64,000 nt of DNA from Atopobiaceae bacterium. GTDB taxonomy: Bacteria; Actinomycetota; Coriobacteriia; Coriobacteriales; Atopobiaceae. Location of the stretch: positions 806,001 to 870,000 of the forward strand of contig JAKVOB010000001.1 in assembly GCA_022483015.1 (NCBI GenBank), given 5' to 3'. The translations under genes were made by a program, and so were the position numbers. The notes beneath the pieces were generated by a model that ran no database searches, was not told the origin of the DNA, and saw only the letters and a list, made by a program, of their open reading frames with translations. How positions within the stretch are numbered: the first letter of the stretch is position 1; every line of letters starts with the position of its first letter. This document shows, piece by piece, positions 1 to 9,644 of the stretch.

Positions 1-644
1 CCGTCCGTGAGGCCATCGAGACCGACTCGACCCTTGACTCGGCCAAGCAGGATGACGGCACCTACACGGTACCTTCCGCGGACACCGTCGTCTCGATCGC
101 CCGCAACGCCATCGTTCAGAAGCAGGTCGCGGCAGAGGGCATCACGGTGAGTGATGACGACGTCTCCTCCTATGCGGAGAGCTCCCTGGGCTCCTCCGAC
201 TATGCCACGATCGCCTCGCAGTACGGCATGACCGAGGATGCGGTCAAGGAGACCCTCACGGAGAGCTGTGGCACCAAGAAGCTCTATGACAGCGTCGTGA
301 CCACCACCACGACCTCGGCTCCCACGGCCCCCACGTCGCCTGCCGATGGTACCGACAACGACACCATGACGGCTGACTATGGCGCCTACGTCGTGAACCT
401 CCTCGGTGACGAGTGGGACTCGACCACCAACACCTGGGCTCGTACCGACGGCTCGTTCTACTCGGCCATGAAGGACATGCAGTTCACGAGCGACTCCGCG
501 AGCTACACGCAGGCCGAGACCGCCTACTACGTCGCCTACCAGCAGTACTCTCAGACCGCGAGTGACGCCTCCTCGCAGTGGACCTCCTATGTGAACGGCC
601 TGCTGTCCAAGGCGACCATCTCGCTCAGCACGCTCGTCTCCTAG
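1..644 (+). CDS. Secreted SurA/trigger-factor-like chaperone, C-terminal part (partial)
   Basis: The gene enters from the left edge; the reading frame is open from base 3 and ends at a stop at 644, so the start and any signal peptide lie outside the window. About 213 residues are visible. An alpha-helical stretch with the pattern expected of SurA-N or trigger-factor C domains (SDDDVSSYAE, then a QYGMTEDAVKETL helix) is followed by a Thr/Ser/Pro-rich linker (TTTTTSAPTAPTSP) and a Tyr-rich C-terminal segment. No parvulin domain is visible in this part. Known SurA/PrsA-like proteins assist folding outside the membrane; that role is inferred here. A strong UUCG hairpin follows the stop, so this is probably the last gene of its transcript. 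Confidence 0.55.
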   Translation, partial: VREAIETDSTLDSAKQDDGTYTVPSADTVVSIARNAIVQKQVAAEGITVSDDDVSSYAESSLGSSDYATIASQYGMTEDAVKETLTESCGTKKLYDSVVTTTTTSAPTAPTSPADGTDNDTMTADYGAYVVNLLGDEWDSTTNTWARTDGSFYSAMKDMQFTSDSASYTQAETAYYVAYQQYSQTASDASSQWTSYVNGLLSKATISLSTLVS

Positions 645-2229: not shown

Positions 2230-3135
2230 TCATCCCGGTACCGTCTGCCCCGTGACTCCACAGACGGTGCGGGCGGCCTGCACGAAAGCCCGTATGCCGT
2301 CCGTGGCCTCCGAGTGGTGCCAGGCGATCCCATAGCACAGGTGCTCGTCGGAATCGAACGGGACGAGGGCGAGGCCCGGGTCGAGGTCCGCCTCGAAGTC
2401 GGGCATGATGGCGACGCCCAACCCGCCCCTGATCATGGTGCATGCCGCGGTGGCCGAATCGGCATAGTACATGATGGCCCCAGGGCATTCCGCTTGGAGC
2501 GTCGCGTAGAGGCGTAGCATCTCGGGTGGCGACTTCGAGGGGTCCAGGACGATGAGGGCCTGGTCGATGACGTCCGTCGCGACGAGGGACTTCCTGCCCG
2601 CCAGTGGGTTGCTCGCTGGCATGAGACAGACGAGGCTCGCGTCGAGGAGCGGCTGGAAGCAGACGCCGTCCCTCGAGGGGCCCTTGTCGGCGACCGTGAA
2701 GATGACGTCGCGCTCATGATTCCTGAGACGCCGGATCCGGGATGCGTTGTCCTCCATCCTGAGCTGGATGTACGTGTCGGGACATTGCCGCGTGCACCGG
2801 CTGATGACCTGCGGCAGTATGTCCGTCTCCCAGACGTTGCCCTCATAGCTGACGCTGAGGCTTCCCCGGTATTCCCGCGCATAGTTCCGCGCCTTGGCAA
2901 TCGACGAGTCGAGGGTGACCAGGACGTCCCGTGCGTCCTCGTGCAAGGACGCTCCGGCGGGGGTGAGCCGCACCGAATGCCTGTTCCGGTAGAAGAGGGC
3001 GAAGCCGAGCTCGCGTTCGAGTGCGTCGATCTGGTGGCTCACCGATGACTGTGCCATGAACAGGTTCTGTGCCGTGGTCGAGAAGCTGAGCGTCTCTCCC
3101 AGCATCACGAACGTCTCGAGCTGCGCGACTCTCAT
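2230..3135 (-). CDS. LysR-family transcriptional regulator
   Basis: A 301-residue LysR regulator. Residues 1-60 are the winged helix-turn-helix (MRVAQLETFVMLGETLSFSTTA, then MAQSSVSHQIDALERELG), followed by a linker helix and a periplasmic-binding-type effector domain (about 90-295). The ATG at 3135 is preferred over the longer reading frame at 3174 because AAGGAG lies 8 bases before it and because LysR proteins usually start right at this helix. It is divergent from an NmrA-type oxidoreductase gene, and two palindromes sit in the shared gap. By the usual LysR arrangement it probably controls that neighbour and itself. The inducer cannot be read from the sequence. Confidence 0.9.
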   Translation of the reverse strand: MRVAQLETFVMLGETLSFSTTAQNLFMAQSSVSHQIDALERELGFALFYRNRHSVRLTPAGASLHEDARDVLVTLDSSIAKARNYAREYRGSLSVSYEGNVWETDILPQVISRCTRQCPDTYIQLRMEDNASRIRRLRNHERDVIFTVADKGPSRDGVCFQPLLDASLVCLMPASNPLAGRKSLVATDVIDQALIVLDPSKSPPEMLRLYATLQAECPGAIMYYADSATAACTMIRGGLGVAIMPDFEADLDPGLALVPFDSDEHLCYGIAWHHSEATDGIRAFVQAARTVCGVTGQTVPG

Positions 3136-3153
3136 GTTCCGGCTCCTTCCCCA

Positions 3154-3191
3154 GTTATCGATAACATGCATCAATCATGACATACATGATT
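3154..3191. promoter_or_regulatory. Two palindromes between divergent lysR and nmrA-like genes
   Basis: A perfect 12-bp palindrome GTTATCGATAAC covers 3154-3165. A second site, AATCATG-ACATA-CATGATT, covers 3173-3191 with perfect 7-bp arms and contains the T-N11-A pattern of LysR boxes. Both lie in the 123-bp gap between the divergent starts. LysR binding is inferred. Confidence 0.6.
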
Positions 3192-3258: not shown

Positions 3259-4230
3259 ATGAAGTACATCGTCACCGGCAGTGATGGCCAGCTTGGCGGA
3301 AGGGTCGCCAGCAACATGCTCAAGGAGGTCCCCGCGGAGGACCTCATCTTCACCTGCCCAGACCTTGGGAGGCTCGATGCGGGGAAGCGCTCCGCGTGGG
3401 AGTCGGCTGGCGTCTCGGTGCGCGAGGCTAACTATGACGACCAGGCTGGCATGGTCGAGGCATTCAAGGGCGGCGACAGGATCTACTTCGTCTCTGGCAT
3501 ACTGAACGGCCCCGAGCGCGTGGTCCAACACAAGAGGGTGCTCGATGCCTGTGTGGAGGCAGGTGTGGGGCATATCATCTACACCTCGTTCTTCGGGGCC
3601 AACAGGCCCGACTACCACCAGTATGTCCTGCCCGACCACACCGCTACCGAGGCTTACCTCAAGGAGATGTCGAGCCGGCTCGGCTTCACCTACAACGTGA
3701 TGCGCAACAACCTCTACATGGAGAACTACCTCACCAACTCCGTGATGCTGGCGAACCTGTCGGGCTACCTCTGGGGTTCGAATGCCGGGGACGGCGTGTT
3801 CACACCCATCGCCAAGGACGACTCGGCGGCCTGCGCCACGGCGCTCCTACTGGGCAAGGCCGATCCCAACACCGATTATGACCTCACGAGCGAGACTCCC
3901 GTGAGCGAGCGTGACATCTGCGCGATGGTGGCGGCGCACAGCGGAAGGCCCTACGTCTACCAGGCGATGGATGACGAGGAGTTCCTGGCCTACCTGAGCG
4001 CCCTCGGCATATCGAGCTCGACCCAAGGCTACGATTCGAAGGCGCCGGTGCTCTGGTGCAGCAACGACATGGTCACCAACGAGGGGGGCATCCGCAACGG
4101 ACAGATGGGCGTCGTGTCCCACGACGTGGAGCGGCTCCTCGGCCGCAAGCCCCTCGAGGTCTCCGACATCATCGACAGGTACTCCTATATGTGGGAGGAG
4201 AACGTGTCCAACTGGCGCCAGATTCGCTAG
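3259..4230 (+). CDS. NmrA/atypical-SDR NAD(P)-binding protein
   Basis: A 323-residue Rossmann-fold protein. The N-terminus carries a dinucleotide motif (VTGSDGQLGGRVASNML, residues 4-20), followed by IYFVSGILNG and HIIYTSFFGA, typical of NmrA/QorB-like atypical short-chain dehydrogenases. Family members are NAD(P)H:quinone oxidoreductases, isoflavone-reductase-like enzymes or redox-sensing regulators without catalysis, so the reaction stays open. The start at 3259 has AAGGAG upstream. It is transcribed divergently from the LysR gene, its probable regulator, and ends at a strong hairpin. Confidence 0.8.
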   Translation: MKYIVTGSDGQLGGRVASNMLKEVPAEDLIFTCPDLGRLDAGKRSAWESAGVSVREANYDDQAGMVEAFKGGDRIYFVSGILNGPERVVQHKRVLDACVEAGVGHIIYTSFFGANRPDYHQYVLPDHTATEAYLKEMSSRLGFTYNVMRNNLYMENYLTNSVMLANLSGYLWGSNAGDGVFTPIAKDDSAACATALLLGKADPNTDYDLTSETPVSERDICAMVAAHSGRPYVYQAMDDEEFLAYLSALGISSSTQGYDSKAPVLWCSNDMVTNEGGIRNGQMGVVSHDVERLLGRKPLEVSDIIDRYSYMWEENVSNWRQIR

Positions 4231-4251
4231 CGACAGCCATACGTCGGTATG

Positions 4252-4285
4252 CGGGGACCTGTCGGCAGAAGCCGGCGGGTCCCCG
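4252..4285 (+). terminator. Terminator after the NmrA-like gene
   Basis: An 8-bp perfect outer stem, cggggacc (4252-4259) with ggtccccg (4278-4285), encloses a smaller cggc/gccg hairpin. It lies 22 bases after the stop and insulates the ilv operon promoter. Confidence 0.75.
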
Positions 4286-4354
4286 TCGTTGTCTGGAGGA
4301 CATGCCCTCCCTGGTCCTTCATATGTCGGTCGTGTTTCGCGACGTGCAATCCGT

Positions 4355-4383
4355 TTGACACTGCCACGCTGCTGGGATAGTCT
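4355..4383 (+). promoter_or_regulatory. Promoter of the ilv operon
   Basis: A consensus TTGACA (4355-4360) is followed after 17 bp by TAGTCT (4378-4383). Transcription would start near 4390, giving a leader of about 209 nt before ilvB. Confidence 0.6.
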
Positions 4384-4389
4384 GCTCGC

Positions 4390-4598
4390 AACACGTTTTT
4401 CCACACGGTTAATGACGTGCTACCAGCTCATATCTCGTATGAGGCCCTCCCAGGTCTGGCTGTCTCAGAAGCCTGGGGGGCTTCGCAGCACTAAGCCCCC
4501 TTCGTGGGCCACCGGCATCACGGGTGACGCCTACGCTCGTACCCACGGGGCTTGCACGTGTCGGAACGATTCTGGCAACGAGAAGGAGTGAATCATAG
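4390..4598 (+). promoter_or_regulatory. ilvB leader with mutually exclusive hairpins
   Basis: The untranslated leader can form a stem between 4446-4454 and 4472-4480 (ccctcccagg region with cctgggggg). The same G run is needed for a competing 8-bp hairpin, gggggctt (4476-4483) with aagccccc (4493-4500). This is the geometry of an attenuator. No T-box core sequence was found, and no leader ORF rich in Ile, Val or Leu codons with a ribosome site could be recognised, so the signal sensed is unknown. The hairpin lacks a T run; it could act on translation or through Rho. Confidence 0.45.
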
Positions 4599-6305
4599 AT
4601 GCAGGTCACAGGGGCAAAGATCCTTCTGGAATGTCTCCTCGAGCAAGACGTCGACACCGTCTTCGGCTACCCCGGTGGGACGATCCTGAACGTCTATGAC
4701 GAGCTCTACTCCTACAAGGACCGCATCCGTCACATCCTCACCTCGCACGAGCAGGGTGCGGCCCATGCCGCCGACGGCTATGCCCGCTCCACCGGCAAGG
4801 TCGGCGTCTGCTTTGCCACCTCGGGCCCAGGATGCACCAACCTCACCACGGGCATCGCCACGGCCTACATGGACAGCTCGCCCACGGTCTTCATCACCTG
4901 CAACGTCCCCGAGCCGCTCGTGGGCAGGGACTCGTTCCAGGAGGTCGACATCACGGGCATCACCATGCCCATCACCAAGAGCAACTACCTCGTCCACCAT
5001 GCCTCCGAGATGGCCGACGTCGTGCGCGAGGCCTTCGCGGTGGCCCATGGCGGACGCCCCGGCCCCGTGCTCATCGACATGACGAAGAACGCCACCTCCG
5101 AGCTTGCTGACTATGAGTTCCTCCCCAAGGAGAAGCACTTCACGCAGGGACGCCTCGGCGACCTCGTCCGCCGCTCGAGCCATGGGCTCAAGCTCCCCGA
5201 GCCTGATGCCGCCGACGTGAAGACCCTGGTAGACATGATTGCCGAGTCAGACAAGCCTCTGCTCATCTGCGGCGGCGGCGTCGTGCGTGGTCGTGCCAAC
5301 GTGGAGTTCACCGAGTTCGCCGAGAAGGTCGACGCGCCCGTGGCCATCAGCCTCATGGGTGCCGGCGGATTCAAGGGCAGGAACCCACTCACCACCGGCA
5401 TGATCGGCATGCATGGCACGCAGGCCTCCAACATGGCCGTCGACGGCTGCGACCTGCTCATCGCGGTCGGGTGTCGCTTCTCCGACCGCGTCGCGCTCAA
5501 CCCCGAGACCTTCGCGAGCCAGGCCAAGATCGTCCAGATCGACATCGACCGCTCCGAGATCAACAAGAACGTCATGACCGACCATCACATCATCGGCGAT
5601 GCAAAGCAGGTGCTCGCCGCCCTGAACGAGCAGCTCTCCCAGCAGCACCATGACGCCTGGAAGAAGTACGTCTTCTCGTTCGCGACGGAGACCGAGTACG
5701 ACGAGGCCGGTGACACCCTCACTCCCAAGCAGATCAACGATGCCATCGCCCGCATCTGTCCCCAGGACACCATCGTCGCGACCGACGTGGGCCAGCACCA
5801 GATCTGGGTCGCGCAGCACTTCCACTACGACTACCCCGGCCAGCTCATCACCTCGGGTGGCTTCGGTGCCATGGGATTCGGCCTGGGGGCCGCCATCGGC
5901 GCCCAGGTGGGCAACCCCGACAAGACGGTCATCCACGTGACGGGCGACGGCAGCTTCCGCATGAACTGCAACGAGCTCGCCACCGAGCAGTTCTACGACC
6001 TGCCCATCATCACCATCGTCTACAACAACGGGGTCCTCGGCATGGTGCGTCAGTGGCAGACGCTCATCTACGACGAGCGCTACTCCCAGACCACGCTCGA
6101 CCGTGGTCCTGACTTCGTGAAGCTCGCCGAGGCCTATGGTCTCGCCGGCGCCCACGTCCATACCGTGGACGAGCTCGAGGCAGCCTTGAGGGAGGCTCTC
6201 GCGTCCGGTCATGGCTATGTGGTCGACTGCGCCATCAACGAGGACGAGATGGTCCGCCCGATGGTCCCCGGCGGCGCAGGTATCACTGACTTTCTGGTCT
6301 GCTAA
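4599..6305 (+). CDS. ilvB: Acetolactate synthase, large catalytic subunit
   Basis: A 568-residue ThDP-dependent enzyme of the usual length, making acetolactate or acetohydroxybutyrate from pyruvate (and 2-oxobutyrate), the first common step of Val, Leu and Ile synthesis. Visible features are the N-terminal pyrimidine-binding domain with the catalytic-Glu segment TSHEQGAAHAADGYAR, the central FAD-binding domain with RFSDRV, and the C-terminal ThDP/Mg motif GDGSFRMNCNELAT followed by NNGVLGMVRQWQ. AAGGAG lies upstream of the ATG at 4599. The regulatory subunit ilvN follows 11 bases later, so the two are cotranscribed. Confidence 0.96.
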   Translation: MQVTGAKILLECLLEQDVDTVFGYPGGTILNVYDELYSYKDRIRHILTSHEQGAAHAADGYARSTGKVGVCFATSGPGCTNLTTGIATAYMDSSPTVFITCNVPEPLVGRDSFQEVDITGITMPITKSNYLVHHASEMADVVREAFAVAHGGRPGPVLIDMTKNATSELADYEFLPKEKHFTQGRLGDLVRRSSHGLKLPEPDAADVKTLVDMIAESDKPLLICGGGVVRGRANVEFTEFAEKVDAPVAISLMGAGGFKGRNPLTTGMIGMHGTQASNMAVDGCDLLIAVGCRFSDRVALNPETFASQAKIVQIDIDRSEINKNVMTDHHIIGDAKQVLAALNEQLSQQHHDAWKKYVFSFATETEYDEAGDTLTPKQINDAIARICPQDTIVATDVGQHQIWVAQHFHYDYPGQLITSGGFGAMGFGLGAAIGAQVGNPDKTVIHVTGDGSFRMNCNELATEQFYDLPIITIVYNNGVLGMVRQWQTLIYDERYSQTTLDRGPDFVKLAEAYGLAGAHVHTVDELEAALREALASGHGYVVDCAINEDEMVRPMVPGGAGITDFLVC

Positions 6306-6316
6306 GGAGGCTTGAC

Positions 6317-6868
6317 GTGGAAGACGAAACCAGGCGTTCGATCTCCGTGCTGGTGAACAACGAGGCGGGCGTGCTTTCGCAGGTCTCGAGGCTCTTCTCC
6401 CGCAAGGGCTACAACATCGAGTCGCTGGCCGTGGGCACCACCGACGACCCTGTGGTCTCACGTATCACCATCGAGATCATGGCCGACGACCCCCACATCG
6501 AGCTCATCTGCAACCAGCTCAGGAAGCTCATCCCCGTGAGGTCCGTCAAGATGCTCAAGCCCGAGAACTCGATCAGGCGCGAGCTCGTCCTGCTCAAGGT
6601 CCTGGCCATCGACGCCGGGGCGAGCGACCGCATCATCCAGATCGCCAACATCTTCAGGGCGTCGATCATCGACGTCTCACCGACCACGCTGACCATCGCC
6701 CTCATCGGCGAGGAAAGCAAGAACGAGGCCATCGTCGACCTCGTCAGCCAGTTCGGCATCCTCGAGCTAGTGCGCACCGGAATGGTCGCAATAGAGCGAG
6801 GTACTGATACGATATACGACGCGACGAAGGAAAAGGGAGAGTTCGATTATGGCAAAAATGTATTATGA
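6317..6868 (+). CDS. ilvN: Acetolactate synthase, small regulatory subunit
   Basis: A 183-residue protein starting at GTG 6317, with AAGGAGG directly upstream. The ACT domain (residues 6-75: [30 protein letters not shown]) binds valine for feedback control, and the C-terminal ALS small-subunit domain ([10 protein letters not shown], then [17 protein letters not shown]) follows. It is slightly longer than the common 160-175 residues. Its end overlaps the ilvC start by 20 bases, which implies translational coupling. Confidence 0.95.
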
Positions 6869-7868
6869 GGCAGACTGTGACCTTTCCAAGCTCGACGGTA
6901 AGAAGATTGCCATCATCGGCTATGGCTCGCAGGGCCACGCACACGCGCTGAACCTCAAGGACTCCGGCTGCGACGTCGTCGTGGGCCTCCGCGAGGGCAG
7001 CAAGTCCATCGCCGTCGCCGAGAAGGCCGGGCTCACCGTCAAGAGCATCCCCGATGCCTCCAAGTGGGCAGACATCATCATGATCCTCGTGAACGACGAG
7101 GTCGCGGCTGACGTCTACAAGAAGAGCATCGCCCCCTACCTCGAGGAGGGCAACGCCATCGCCTTCGCGCATGGCTTCAACATCCGCTACAAGCAGGTCG
7201 TCCCGCCCGCAGGCGTCGACGTCTTCATGGCCGCCCCCAAGGGCCCGGGCCACACCGTCCGCTCGCAGTACGTGGCCGGCCACGGCGTCCCCTGCCTGAT
7301 CGCTGTCGAGCAGGATGCCACGGGCACCTGCAAGGACATCGCCCTGGCCTACATCGCTGGCATCGGTGGCGCTCGCGCCGGCATCATGGAGACCACGATG
7401 CATGACGAGACCGAGACCGACCTGTTCGGCGAGCAGTGCGTGCTCTGCGGCGGCATCGTCGACCTCATGCAGTGCGGCTTCGAGACCCTCGTCGAGGCTG
7501 GCTATGCCCCCGAGAACGCCTACTTCGAGTGCATCCACGAGATGAAGCTCATCGTCGACCTGATCAACAAGGGCGGCGTCGCAGCCATGAACTACTCCAT
7601 CTCCGACACGGCCGAGTACGGCGAGTACGTCTCCGGCCCCCGCGTCCTTCCCCACGACGAGGTCAAGAAGAACATGCGCGCCGTGCTCTCCGACATCCAG
7701 GACGGCACCTTCGCCAGCCGCTGGATCGCCGAGAACAAGAACGGCCGCTGCTACTTTACGTCCAAGCATGACGACCTCGCCAAGCACCAGATGGAGATCG
7801 TGGGCGACCAGCTCCGCACCCAGATGATCTGGGGCAACGACAAGGACCTCGACAACGCGTCCGACTAG
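6849..7868 (+). CDS. ilvC: Ketol-acid reductoisomerase (class I)
   Basis: A 339-residue class I enzyme that isomerises and reduces acetolactate to dihydroxyisovalerate. The Rossmann motif [17 protein letters not shown] (residues 24-40) is followed by GLREGSKS, which sets cofactor choice. The knotted C-terminal domain supplies the Mg ligands in [16 protein letters not shown] and the later ECIHEMK. The start lies inside the end of ilvN. A large hairpin follows at 7902-7931. Confidence 0.96.
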
Positions 7869-7901
7869 TCACAGATCCGTGCGGTAGGAATCGAGAATCC
7901 G

Positions 7902-7931
7902 CCGCTCTGGGCCATCCGGCCCAGGGCGGCG
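7902..7931 (+). terminator. Strong hairpin between ilvC and ilvD
   Basis: A 13-bp stem with one G-T wobble (7902-7914 with 7919-7931) and a 4-base loop ATCC. It may end or thin out ilvBNC transcripts, so that ilvD is expressed at a different level, or it may stabilise the ilvBNC messenger 3' end. Confidence 0.7.
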
Positions 7932-7979
7932 CTTTGCAAGCGGACATATCCGGCACCCGTCGGCAGAACAGGGGACACC

Positions 7980-9644
7980 ATGCAGTCTGACCAGATCAAG
8001 AACGGCATCGGCCGCGCACCAAACCGCAGCCTGCTCTATGCGCTTGGGCTCACCAAGGAGGAGCTCGCCCGGCCCATCGTGGGCGTGGTGAGCTCGTACA
8101 GCGAGGTCGTCCCCGGTCACATGAACCTCGACAAGATCGCCGAGGCCGTGAAGGCCGGCGTGCGCGCCGCGGGAGGCACCCCCATCATGTTCCCCGCCAT
8201 CGCGGTGTGCGACGGCATCGCCATGGGCCACATCGGCATGAAGTACTCGCTCGCCACCCGTGAGCTCATCGCCGACTCCACCGAGTGCATGGCAATCGCC
8301 CATCAGTTCGATGGGCTGGTCATGATTCCCAACTGCGACAAGAACGTGCCAGGGCTGCTCATGGCGGCGGCCCGTCTCAACCTGCCCACCATCTTCTGCG
8401 CGGGCGGCCCCATGCTCGCCGGACACATGCCGAGCGGCAAGCGCACGTGCCTCTCGAGCATGTTCGAGGCCGTGGGCGAGTACCAGGCCGACAAGCTCGA
8501 CGATGCCGGCGTGGAGGAGTACGAGGAGTATGCCTGCCCCAGCTGCGGGAGCTGCTCGGGCATGTACACCGCCAACTCGATGAACTGCCTCACGGAGGCC
8601 ATCGGCATGGGGCTCCGTGGCAACGGGACCATCCCCGCGCCCTACTCCGCGCGGCTGCGTCTTGCCAAGCACACGGGCATGCAGGTCATGAGGCTCATCG
8701 AGGACGACATCCGTCCGCTCGACATCATGACCCCTGCCGCCTTCCACAACGCCGAGACGGTGGACATGGCCTTGGGCTGCTCCACCAACACGATGCTGCA
8801 CCTGCCGGCCATCGCGCACGAGGCCGGCGTCACCATCGACCTCGACATGGCCAATGACATCTCCGCGCACACGCCCAACGTCTGCCACCTGGCCCCGGCT
8901 GGTCCCACCTTCATGGAGGACCTCGACCTGGCTGGCGGCGTCTATGCCGTGATGGCCGAGTTGGCCGAGGGCGGTCTTCTCGACACCTCGCTCATGACCT
9001 GTACGGGGCATACCGTCGCCGAGAACCTGGCCGGCGTCACGAACAAGGACCCCGAGACGATCCGTCCGCTCGACAACCCCTACTCCAAGAGCGGCGGCAT
9101 CGCCGTCCTGCGCGGCAACCTCGCTCCTGACGGCTGCGTCGTGAAGCAGTCCGCCGTGGACCCGGCCATGATGCGCCACACCGGACCGGCCCGCGTCTTC
9201 GACTCCGAGGAGGACGCCATCGCCTGCATCTATGCCAAGGGCATCAACGCCGGCGACGTCGTCGTCATCCGCTACGAGGGTCCCAAGGGCGGTCCTGGCA
9301 TGCGAGAGATGCTGAACCCCACATCGGCCATCTGCGGCATGGGTCTGGGCGACTCGGTGGCGCTGCTCACCGACGGGCGCTTCTCGGGTGCCACGCGCGG
9401 GGCGTCCATCGGTCACATCAGCCCCGAGGCTGCCGCGGGCGGCACCATCGGCCTGGTGGAGGAGGGCGACACCATCTCCATCGACATCCCTGCCTGCTCC
9501 ATCACGCTCGAGGTCGCCGATGACGAGCTCGCACGTCGTCGCGCCGTCTGGGTATGCCCGGAGCCAAAGATCAAGACGGGCTACCTGGCCCGCTATGCCA
9601 AGCTCGTCACATCCGCCGACAAGGGCGCCATCCTGGAGGTCTGA
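7980..9644 (+). CDS. ilvD: Dihydroxy-acid dehydratase
   Basis: A 554-residue Fe-S dehydratase that converts 2,3-dihydroxy acids to 2-oxo acids in Val/Ile synthesis. Cluster-ligand regions are visible: [11 protein letters not shown] and [18 protein letters not shown], plus [17 protein letters not shown]. The C-terminal swivelling domain has [13 protein letters not shown] and HISPEAA. Length matches the family. It follows ilvC after 111 bases holding a strong hairpin, and DUF815 follows 7 bases downstream. Confidence 0.95.

Follow-up and report, generated by a model that had tools for sequence, protein, structure and literature searches.

The ilvBNCD mRNA of this bacterium has a real and unusually structured 5' leader, which is an orphan found so far only in this genome. 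We regard it as probably a private, putative regulatory leader rather than a demonstrated new sensor. If the leader is regulatory, we tentatively suggest, as the joint best explanation, that it acts on the translation of ilvB via the ribosome-binding site. Since the predicted fold hides this site, control of translation would be the likeliest mode for a leader that regulates. Practically level with this explanation is the absence of any regulatory role, i.e., that the structure is incidental to a GC-rich untranslated leader, that the ancestral attenuator disappeared with the change of 5' neighbour, and that the operon is now constitutive or controlled by a DNA-binding regulator.

The ilv operon and the fold of its leader

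The window, i.e., the whole stretch of 64,000 nucleotides that was analysed, lies in a genome made up of a single contig of 2.28 Mb, and the host is probably a member of the Atopobiaceae. A complete ilvB-ilvN-ilvC-ilvD operon is identified by Pfam at 4599-9644 (Table 1), and a DUF815 gene is the next gene after ilvD. The 5' neighbour of the operon is an NmrA-like gene, and a LysR-type regulator (2230-3174, minus strand; Pfam) is divergent from it. A strong hairpin, GACCUGUCGGC..GCCGGCGGGUC, is found 3' of the NmrA-like gene at 4256-4281 (-21.2 kcal/mol for 4256-4290). It is terminator-like, without a good U-run.

The form TTGACA-(16..18)-TANNNT of the candidate promoter is present in 2 of 2000 shuffles. 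The site is the only one of the looser form TTGNNN-16..18-TANNNT within 4231-4598; 170 of 2000 shuffles contain this looser form, as does one of nine relatives' leaders. A stricter promoter scan, with at least 4 of 6 matches per hexamer, does not report the site. From the TTGACA-17-TANNNT arrangement we infer that transcription starts at about 4390. A 209-nt leader after a clear promoter is more length than needed, which argues against an incidental structure. The earlier note on this DNA mentioned neither this promoter nor that the ribosome-binding site is predicted to be buried, nor the second competition (4427-4443 against 4578-4589) described below.

Table 1. Features of the ilv leader and operon, and ilvB attenuators of relatives. 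Positions are those of the window, except in the last two rows.
Feature	Position	Strand	Remarks
NmrA-like gene, 5' neighbour of the ilv operon	3259-4230	+	Pfam
Weak candidate leader ORF	4302-4358	+	MPSLVLHMSVVFRDVQSV, then stop; GGAGG at 4295-4299, 2 nt before ATG
Candidate sigma-70 promoter	4355-4383	+	TTGACA (4355-4360), 17-nt spacer, TAGTCT (4378-4383)
Structured 5' leader of the ilvBNCD mRNA	4390-4598	+	209 nt; fold z-score -2.70, second of 86 by z
5' hairpin	4392-4419	+	weak, -7.5 kcal/mol
Local hairpin, competitor of the helix over the ribosome-binding site	4427-4443	+	CUCAUA..UAUGAG
Hairpin A (1:2)	4446-4480	+	first hairpin of the earlier note; 4441-4484 in the full fold
Hairpin B (2:3)	4476-4500	+	8 bp; GGGGGCUU (4476-4483) with AAGCCCCC (4493-4500)
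Hairpin C (3:4)	4488-4555	+	long, branched, no U-run after it; 4494 pairs with 4552
Hairpin D	4559-4577	+	UGUCGGAA CGA UUCUGGCA; 8 bp; pair probabilities 0.56-1.0
3' strand of the predicted base helix	4578-4589	+	pairs with 4426-4429 and 4433-4438; pair probabilities 0.72-1.0
ilvB, acetolactate synthase large subunit	4599-6305	+	Pfam TPP_enzyme N/M/C; homologues found
ilvN, acetolactate synthase small subunit	6317-6868	+	Pfam ALS_ss_C, ACT_AHAS_ss
ilvC, ketol-acid reductoisomerase	6849-7868	+	Pfam KARI_N, KARI_C
ilvD, dihydroxy-acid dehydratase	7980-9644	+	Pfam ILVD_EDD_N, ILV_EDD_C
ilvB attenuators, family	L111:1335-1440, L133:3399-3492(-), L078:1320-1423, L143:3273-3367(-), L144:3272-3368(-), L011:1341-1437, L145:3262-3356(-)		
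ilvB attenuators, order	L008:3314-3422(-), L010:1304-1413		

The earlier note had claimed two mutually exclusive hairpins that share a G run, and calculation shows both structures and their competition: hairpins A and B each need G4476-G4480, and hairpin B is incompatible with the foot of hairpin C as well. Folded alone, hairpin A has -21.1 kcal/mol (4445-4486), which 8 of 200 shuffles equal, and hairpin B has -13.8 kcal/mol, a value that 0 of 200 shuffles equal. The segment 4493-4552 of hairpin C, also taken alone, is equalled by 27 of 200. For overlapping pairs, the weaker partner of the best pair scores -25.1 (55-nt segments), which 0 of 100 dinucleotide shuffles and only two of the 86 own-genome upstream regions reach, the ilvB leader being one of the two. 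The z-score of the whole leader (Table 1) is equalled in 2 of 200 shuffles, with repeats giving -2.8 to -3.5. The 86 background regions were sampled via a crude gene caller from 460 kb of the genome, the window included. Based on the comparisons with shuffles and with the genome's own regions, the structure of the leader exceeds what composition gives, and this speaks against an incidental origin. In favor of one, the raw folding energy is ordinary, being as low in 32 of the 86 regions.

The full leader is predicted to fold as a four-way junction, with a closing helix (4426-4438/4578-4589) and arms at 4441-4484, 4488-4555 and 4559-4577. At equilibrium hairpin A has a probability of about 0.98-1.0 and hairpin B of about 0, and hairpin B enters the minimum-energy fold at only one of the 12 nascent lengths tried, 4390-4540. 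Because of these two results, hairpin B is not the stable state in the folding model.

The ribosome-binding site and a possible translational switch

The ribosome-binding site GAAGGAG (4582-4588) lies inside the 3' strand of the closing helix. Six pairs of this helix have a probability of 0.92-1.0, and the three pairs over the GAG of the site have 0.97-0.99. The local hairpin at 4427-4443 is in the minimum-energy fold at seven of the nine transcript lengths up to 4580 (it is partial at 4540 and absent at 4500) and is gone at 4586, 4590 and 4598. We suggest that, in the finished transcript, the closing helix of the four-way junction would hide the ribosome-binding site, and that in the cell the site would be buried in the same way. 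The local hairpin, which would form earlier, could capture the 5' strand of the closing helix and, with some ilvB codons present, leave part of the site exposed. Hairpins A and B would be arms of the junction, and the competition between them would not itself open the site. In the model, this layout of closing helix and local hairpin resembles a translational switch, a weakly supported likeness.

Burial of the site was dropped as strong evidence for such a switch after two comparisons with shuffles. The mean accessibility of the site is not significant (277 of 400 shuffles are as closed), which fits an incidental structure, and 13 of the 29 own-genome leaders with a Shine-Dalgarno (SD) sequence, the ilvB leader included, have a site as closed. 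By a stricter count, which takes the confident long-range pairs at the SD together with those of the final 25 nt, 18 of 400 shuffles equal the leader; this measure was picked after the helix was known. The calculations also weaken the notion of a simple release of the site by the local hairpin: when this hairpin is forced in the leader alone, the site stays paired, mostly with 4390-4402 (0.53-0.71). With 14 ilvB codons added, forcing the hairpin costs 5 kcal/mol and raises the unpaired probability of 4582-4589 to 0.20-0.78; opening the site outright costs about 8 kcal/mol.

The attenuator-like character proposed in the earlier note is borne out in topology alone. The competing hairpins are there, but no terminator-like site follows them, and the ribosome-binding site is still buried when hairpin B is forced, with and without 14 ilvB codons. 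No terminator-like site is found in 4200-4700, and the 250 nt directly before ilvB contain no hairpin followed by a T-run. Thus, the choice between A and B has no visible output, which again favors an incidental structure.

Known control devices at the leader

Calculation finds no known sensor in the leader. An Rfam scan of the window at the gathering score finds only a tRNA, and a permissive Rfam 15 scan of 4231-4660 gives no family at E≤10, with T-box RF00230 and the riboswitches included. A known riboswitch class is therefore ruled out. The earlier note had seen no T-box core, and this holds. RF00230 is unmatched in the permissive scan, and a T-box search of the whole genome at E≤1 gives three T-boxes, none of them at ilvB. 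AGGGUGGNACCGCG is the T-box antiterminator motif. Within the 500 nt upstream of ilvB, nothing comes closer to the 14-base T-box motif than five mismatches, as in many relatives that are not T-box-bearing; the seven T-box relatives have none. Together these results rule out a T-box at ilvB. The three T-boxes found (G000:C1:58205-58453(-), 1709421-1709657(-) and 908040-908288(+)) have E values of 6e-16 to 2e-6, below the Rfam cut-off, and from translations they appear to precede trpE, ileS and pheS.

A diverged T-box of the translational type that senses uncharged tRNA is largely refuted by the same searches and by the motif mismatches, and we give it a negligible chance. This is the case even though the nearest ilvB rows by tree path length have T-box motifs, three T-boxes exist elsewhere in the genome, and translational T-boxes precede ileS in actinobacteria according to the cited parts of PMC1262725. 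In these parts, the actinobacterial translational T-boxes hide the SD site, as is predicted for the ilvB leader here, and the LEU element and the translational T-boxes belong to other genes, leuA and ileS, rather than to ilvB. The T-box leaders (RF00230) of the Oscillospiraceae L032-L034 precede the same gene, ilvB, in relatives with the closest proteins, but the leader here has neither the motif nor a match to the model.

The earlier note also reported no classical Ile/Val/Leu (ILV) leader peptide, and we too find no ILV-rich ORF with an SD on the transcript as inferred. Downstream of 4390, no ORF has an SD or more than 4 ILV codons among 8 consecutive ones. The better ORF, at 4302-4358, has 5 of 8 consecutive ILV codons and an SD, a combination that 30 of 500 shuffles reach, as do 3 of 53 intergenic regions, its own included. 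It overlaps the promoter region and lies upstream of the presumed start, and thus it is probably not on the ilvBNCD mRNA. The U5 at 4397-4401 is preceded by a weak long-loop stem only (-16.5 kcal/mol for 4325-4401).

We consider it unlikely that the leader is a ribosome-mediated attenuator in which GUG 4417-4494 or ORF 4302-4358 would encode a cryptic leader peptide and the terminator would be Rho-dependent or lack a U-run. Its 1:2, 2:3, 3:4 topology is like that of trp-type attenuators, relatives have ILV-rich leader peptides, and ORF 4302-4358 offers its ILV codons and SD. However, the ORFs at AUG 4412 and GUG 4417 have no SD and few ILV codons (2 to 3 of 8), the former has no Pfam match, and the better ORF is upstream of the start set by the promoter. 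There is also no U-run terminator here, whereas one is present in the nine relatives' ilvB attenuators that we aligned. The model made from that alignment, R2, leaves this genome (G000) unmatched at E≤0.01 and gives only a 26-nt, 5.2-bit fragment in 4200-4700 (E 0.37), which rules out a leader-peptide attenuator of the family type at ilvB.

According to the cited parts of PMC1262725, PMC10272879 and PMC11857589, Corynebacterium ilvB is subject to leader-peptide attenuation, and Mycobacterium and Streptomyces ilvB have candidate leader peptides with terminators. The cited part of PMC1262725 adds that changes of the leader codons in Streptomyces ilvB had no effect and that leader peptides without terminators exist; the subject of PMC9413887, as far as its cited part goes, is histidine genes. 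The Corynebacterium-type ilvB/ilvBNC attenuators (ilvB-II motif; cited parts of PMC10272879 and PMC11857589) resemble the leader in their position before ilvB, their competing hairpins and their length of a few hundred nucleotides. As described there, they differ from it in that the leader here has no ILV-rich peptide on the presumed transcript and no intrinsic terminator. In an open-literature search of titles and abstract openings, no ilvB leader in Coriobacteriia was among the matches listed.

Relatives, conservation and history

Control devices before ilvB were compared in 76 relatives with an identity of 63% or more and no less than 250 nt of upstream sequence, after removal of L081 and four duplicate loci, using crude criteria of our own in which an ILV-rich ORF has at least 6 ILV codons of 8. 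A T-box motif is found in seven (ilvB identity 77-80%), and three of the four of these scanned with Rfam reach the gathering score. A leader peptide with a terminator is found in 31 (nine members of the attenuator set and 22 others), and an ILV-rich ORF without a terminator-like site in five. Nothing was recognised in the other 33. Since so many relatives also show no device, the lack of a recognised device before ilvB is ordinary, a point in favor of an incidental structure. Among the 33 are 14 coriobacterial relatives, and eight of these 14 show the end of an upstream ORF, which we read as ilvC. The leader occupies the position at which several relatives carry a T-box or the attenuator with a leader peptide. 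Should it be regulatory, the ilv operon would be another operon that swaps its RNA control device between relatives, from T-box or leader peptide to, here, neither; if it does not, it is an ordinary structured leader. Homologous ilvB genes of Oscillospiraceae and Coriobacteriia are preceded by T-boxes and by leader peptides, and this comparative material makes turnover of the device testable.

The leader itself is not found elsewhere. Its DNA has no convincing match beyond its own genome in 140 family genomes: 105 of them match at E≤1, the best non-self match has E 0.002 over 23 bases, and the best matches compared are on contigs other than that of ilvB, or far from ilvB where it is present. 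A covariance model of the leader (R1), in effect one sequence, was searched with stricter filters against 396 class genomes, and only the leader itself is credible; nine genomes, itself included, match at E≤1, and the next best has E 0.055 over 34 positions. The earlier note had named lack of conservation as the sign against its sensor, and such a lack is what the 140 family and 396 class genomes show, the only same-genus genome in the comparison being without ilvB. This restriction to one genome also fits an incidental structure.

Thus, the different RNA sensor that the earlier note had suggested gains no positive evidence, and a conserved, covarying aptamer, as in a new riboswitch class, did not emerge from the 396 class genomes searched with R1. 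We find it improbable that the leader is a lineage-specific sensor that responds to a branched-chain metabolite or something related, in which the ligand would choose between the closing helix and hairpin 4427-4443 and which would have replaced an ancestral T-box or attenuator. For translational control, our preferred reading for a leader that regulates, we likewise only infer any link to branched-chain amino acids.

The neighbourhood of the operon suggests how the leader may have arisen. Of the 11 family relatives tested, 10 have DUF815, and in eight of the 11 it is no more than 4 kb from ilvB (e.g., in G006, ilvB at 158865-160562 and DUF815 at 164187-165428). For the NmrA-like gene, a search of these 11 relatives, which had no positive control, gives nothing at E≤1e-20; the absence of this 5' neighbour counts for an incidental structure too. 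DUF815 kept near ilvB and an unmatched NmrA-like neighbour are consistent with a 5' end that was rearranged and gained a new leader, and it is reasonable to suppose from gene order that the 5' boundary changed and that an older leader was lost or replaced. In the ilvB tree of 76 rows (77 were given and L010 was omitted), the window joins L038, six other T-box rows and 20 coriobacterial rows at an unresolved fork. With a best identity of 80%, the operon might have been imported recently from Oscillospiraceae, but this fork and the position of DUF815 near ilvB in eight of 11 relatives leave such an import unsupported.

The ilvB attenuators shared in Coriobacteriia (Table 1) consist of a branched-chain amino acid leader peptide, then a UGCAGCC/GGUUGCA hairpin, then a terminator with a U-run. 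The leader peptide, e.g., MAQRTNTAALVAQPTLVVVLIIS, ends near UAG, just before the hairpin. The nine-leader alignment behind R2 has 22 consensus pairs, three of them with double changes. These attenuators of the Atopobiaceae and the order stand before homologous ilvB genes, and DUF815 lies within 4 kb of ilvB in G006, G084, G032 and G030, but the leader in the window has none of their three elements. The attenuators that were scanned with Rfam (L008, L010, L011, L005, which duplicates L111, and L006, which duplicates L078) do not reach the gathering score. Model R2 matches strongly in seven of the 140 family genomes, at ilvB sites, and all seven are its training set. Three weak matches (E 0.001-0.002; G034:C6:2953-3031, G023:C12:87556-87638 and G109:C46:852-949) lie away from the located ilvB, where it is present. 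These could belong to attenuators of other operons or have arisen by chance.

Long ILV-rich leader ORFs are also seen in the clostridial ilvB relatives L039, L041, L045, L046, L048, L049, L051, L052, L054, L088 and L096. A C-terminal part of the [ND]SAE type is common to 10 of these 11 ORFs, L039 being the exception, and the ORFs of this type could possibly be an undescribed family of leader peptides.
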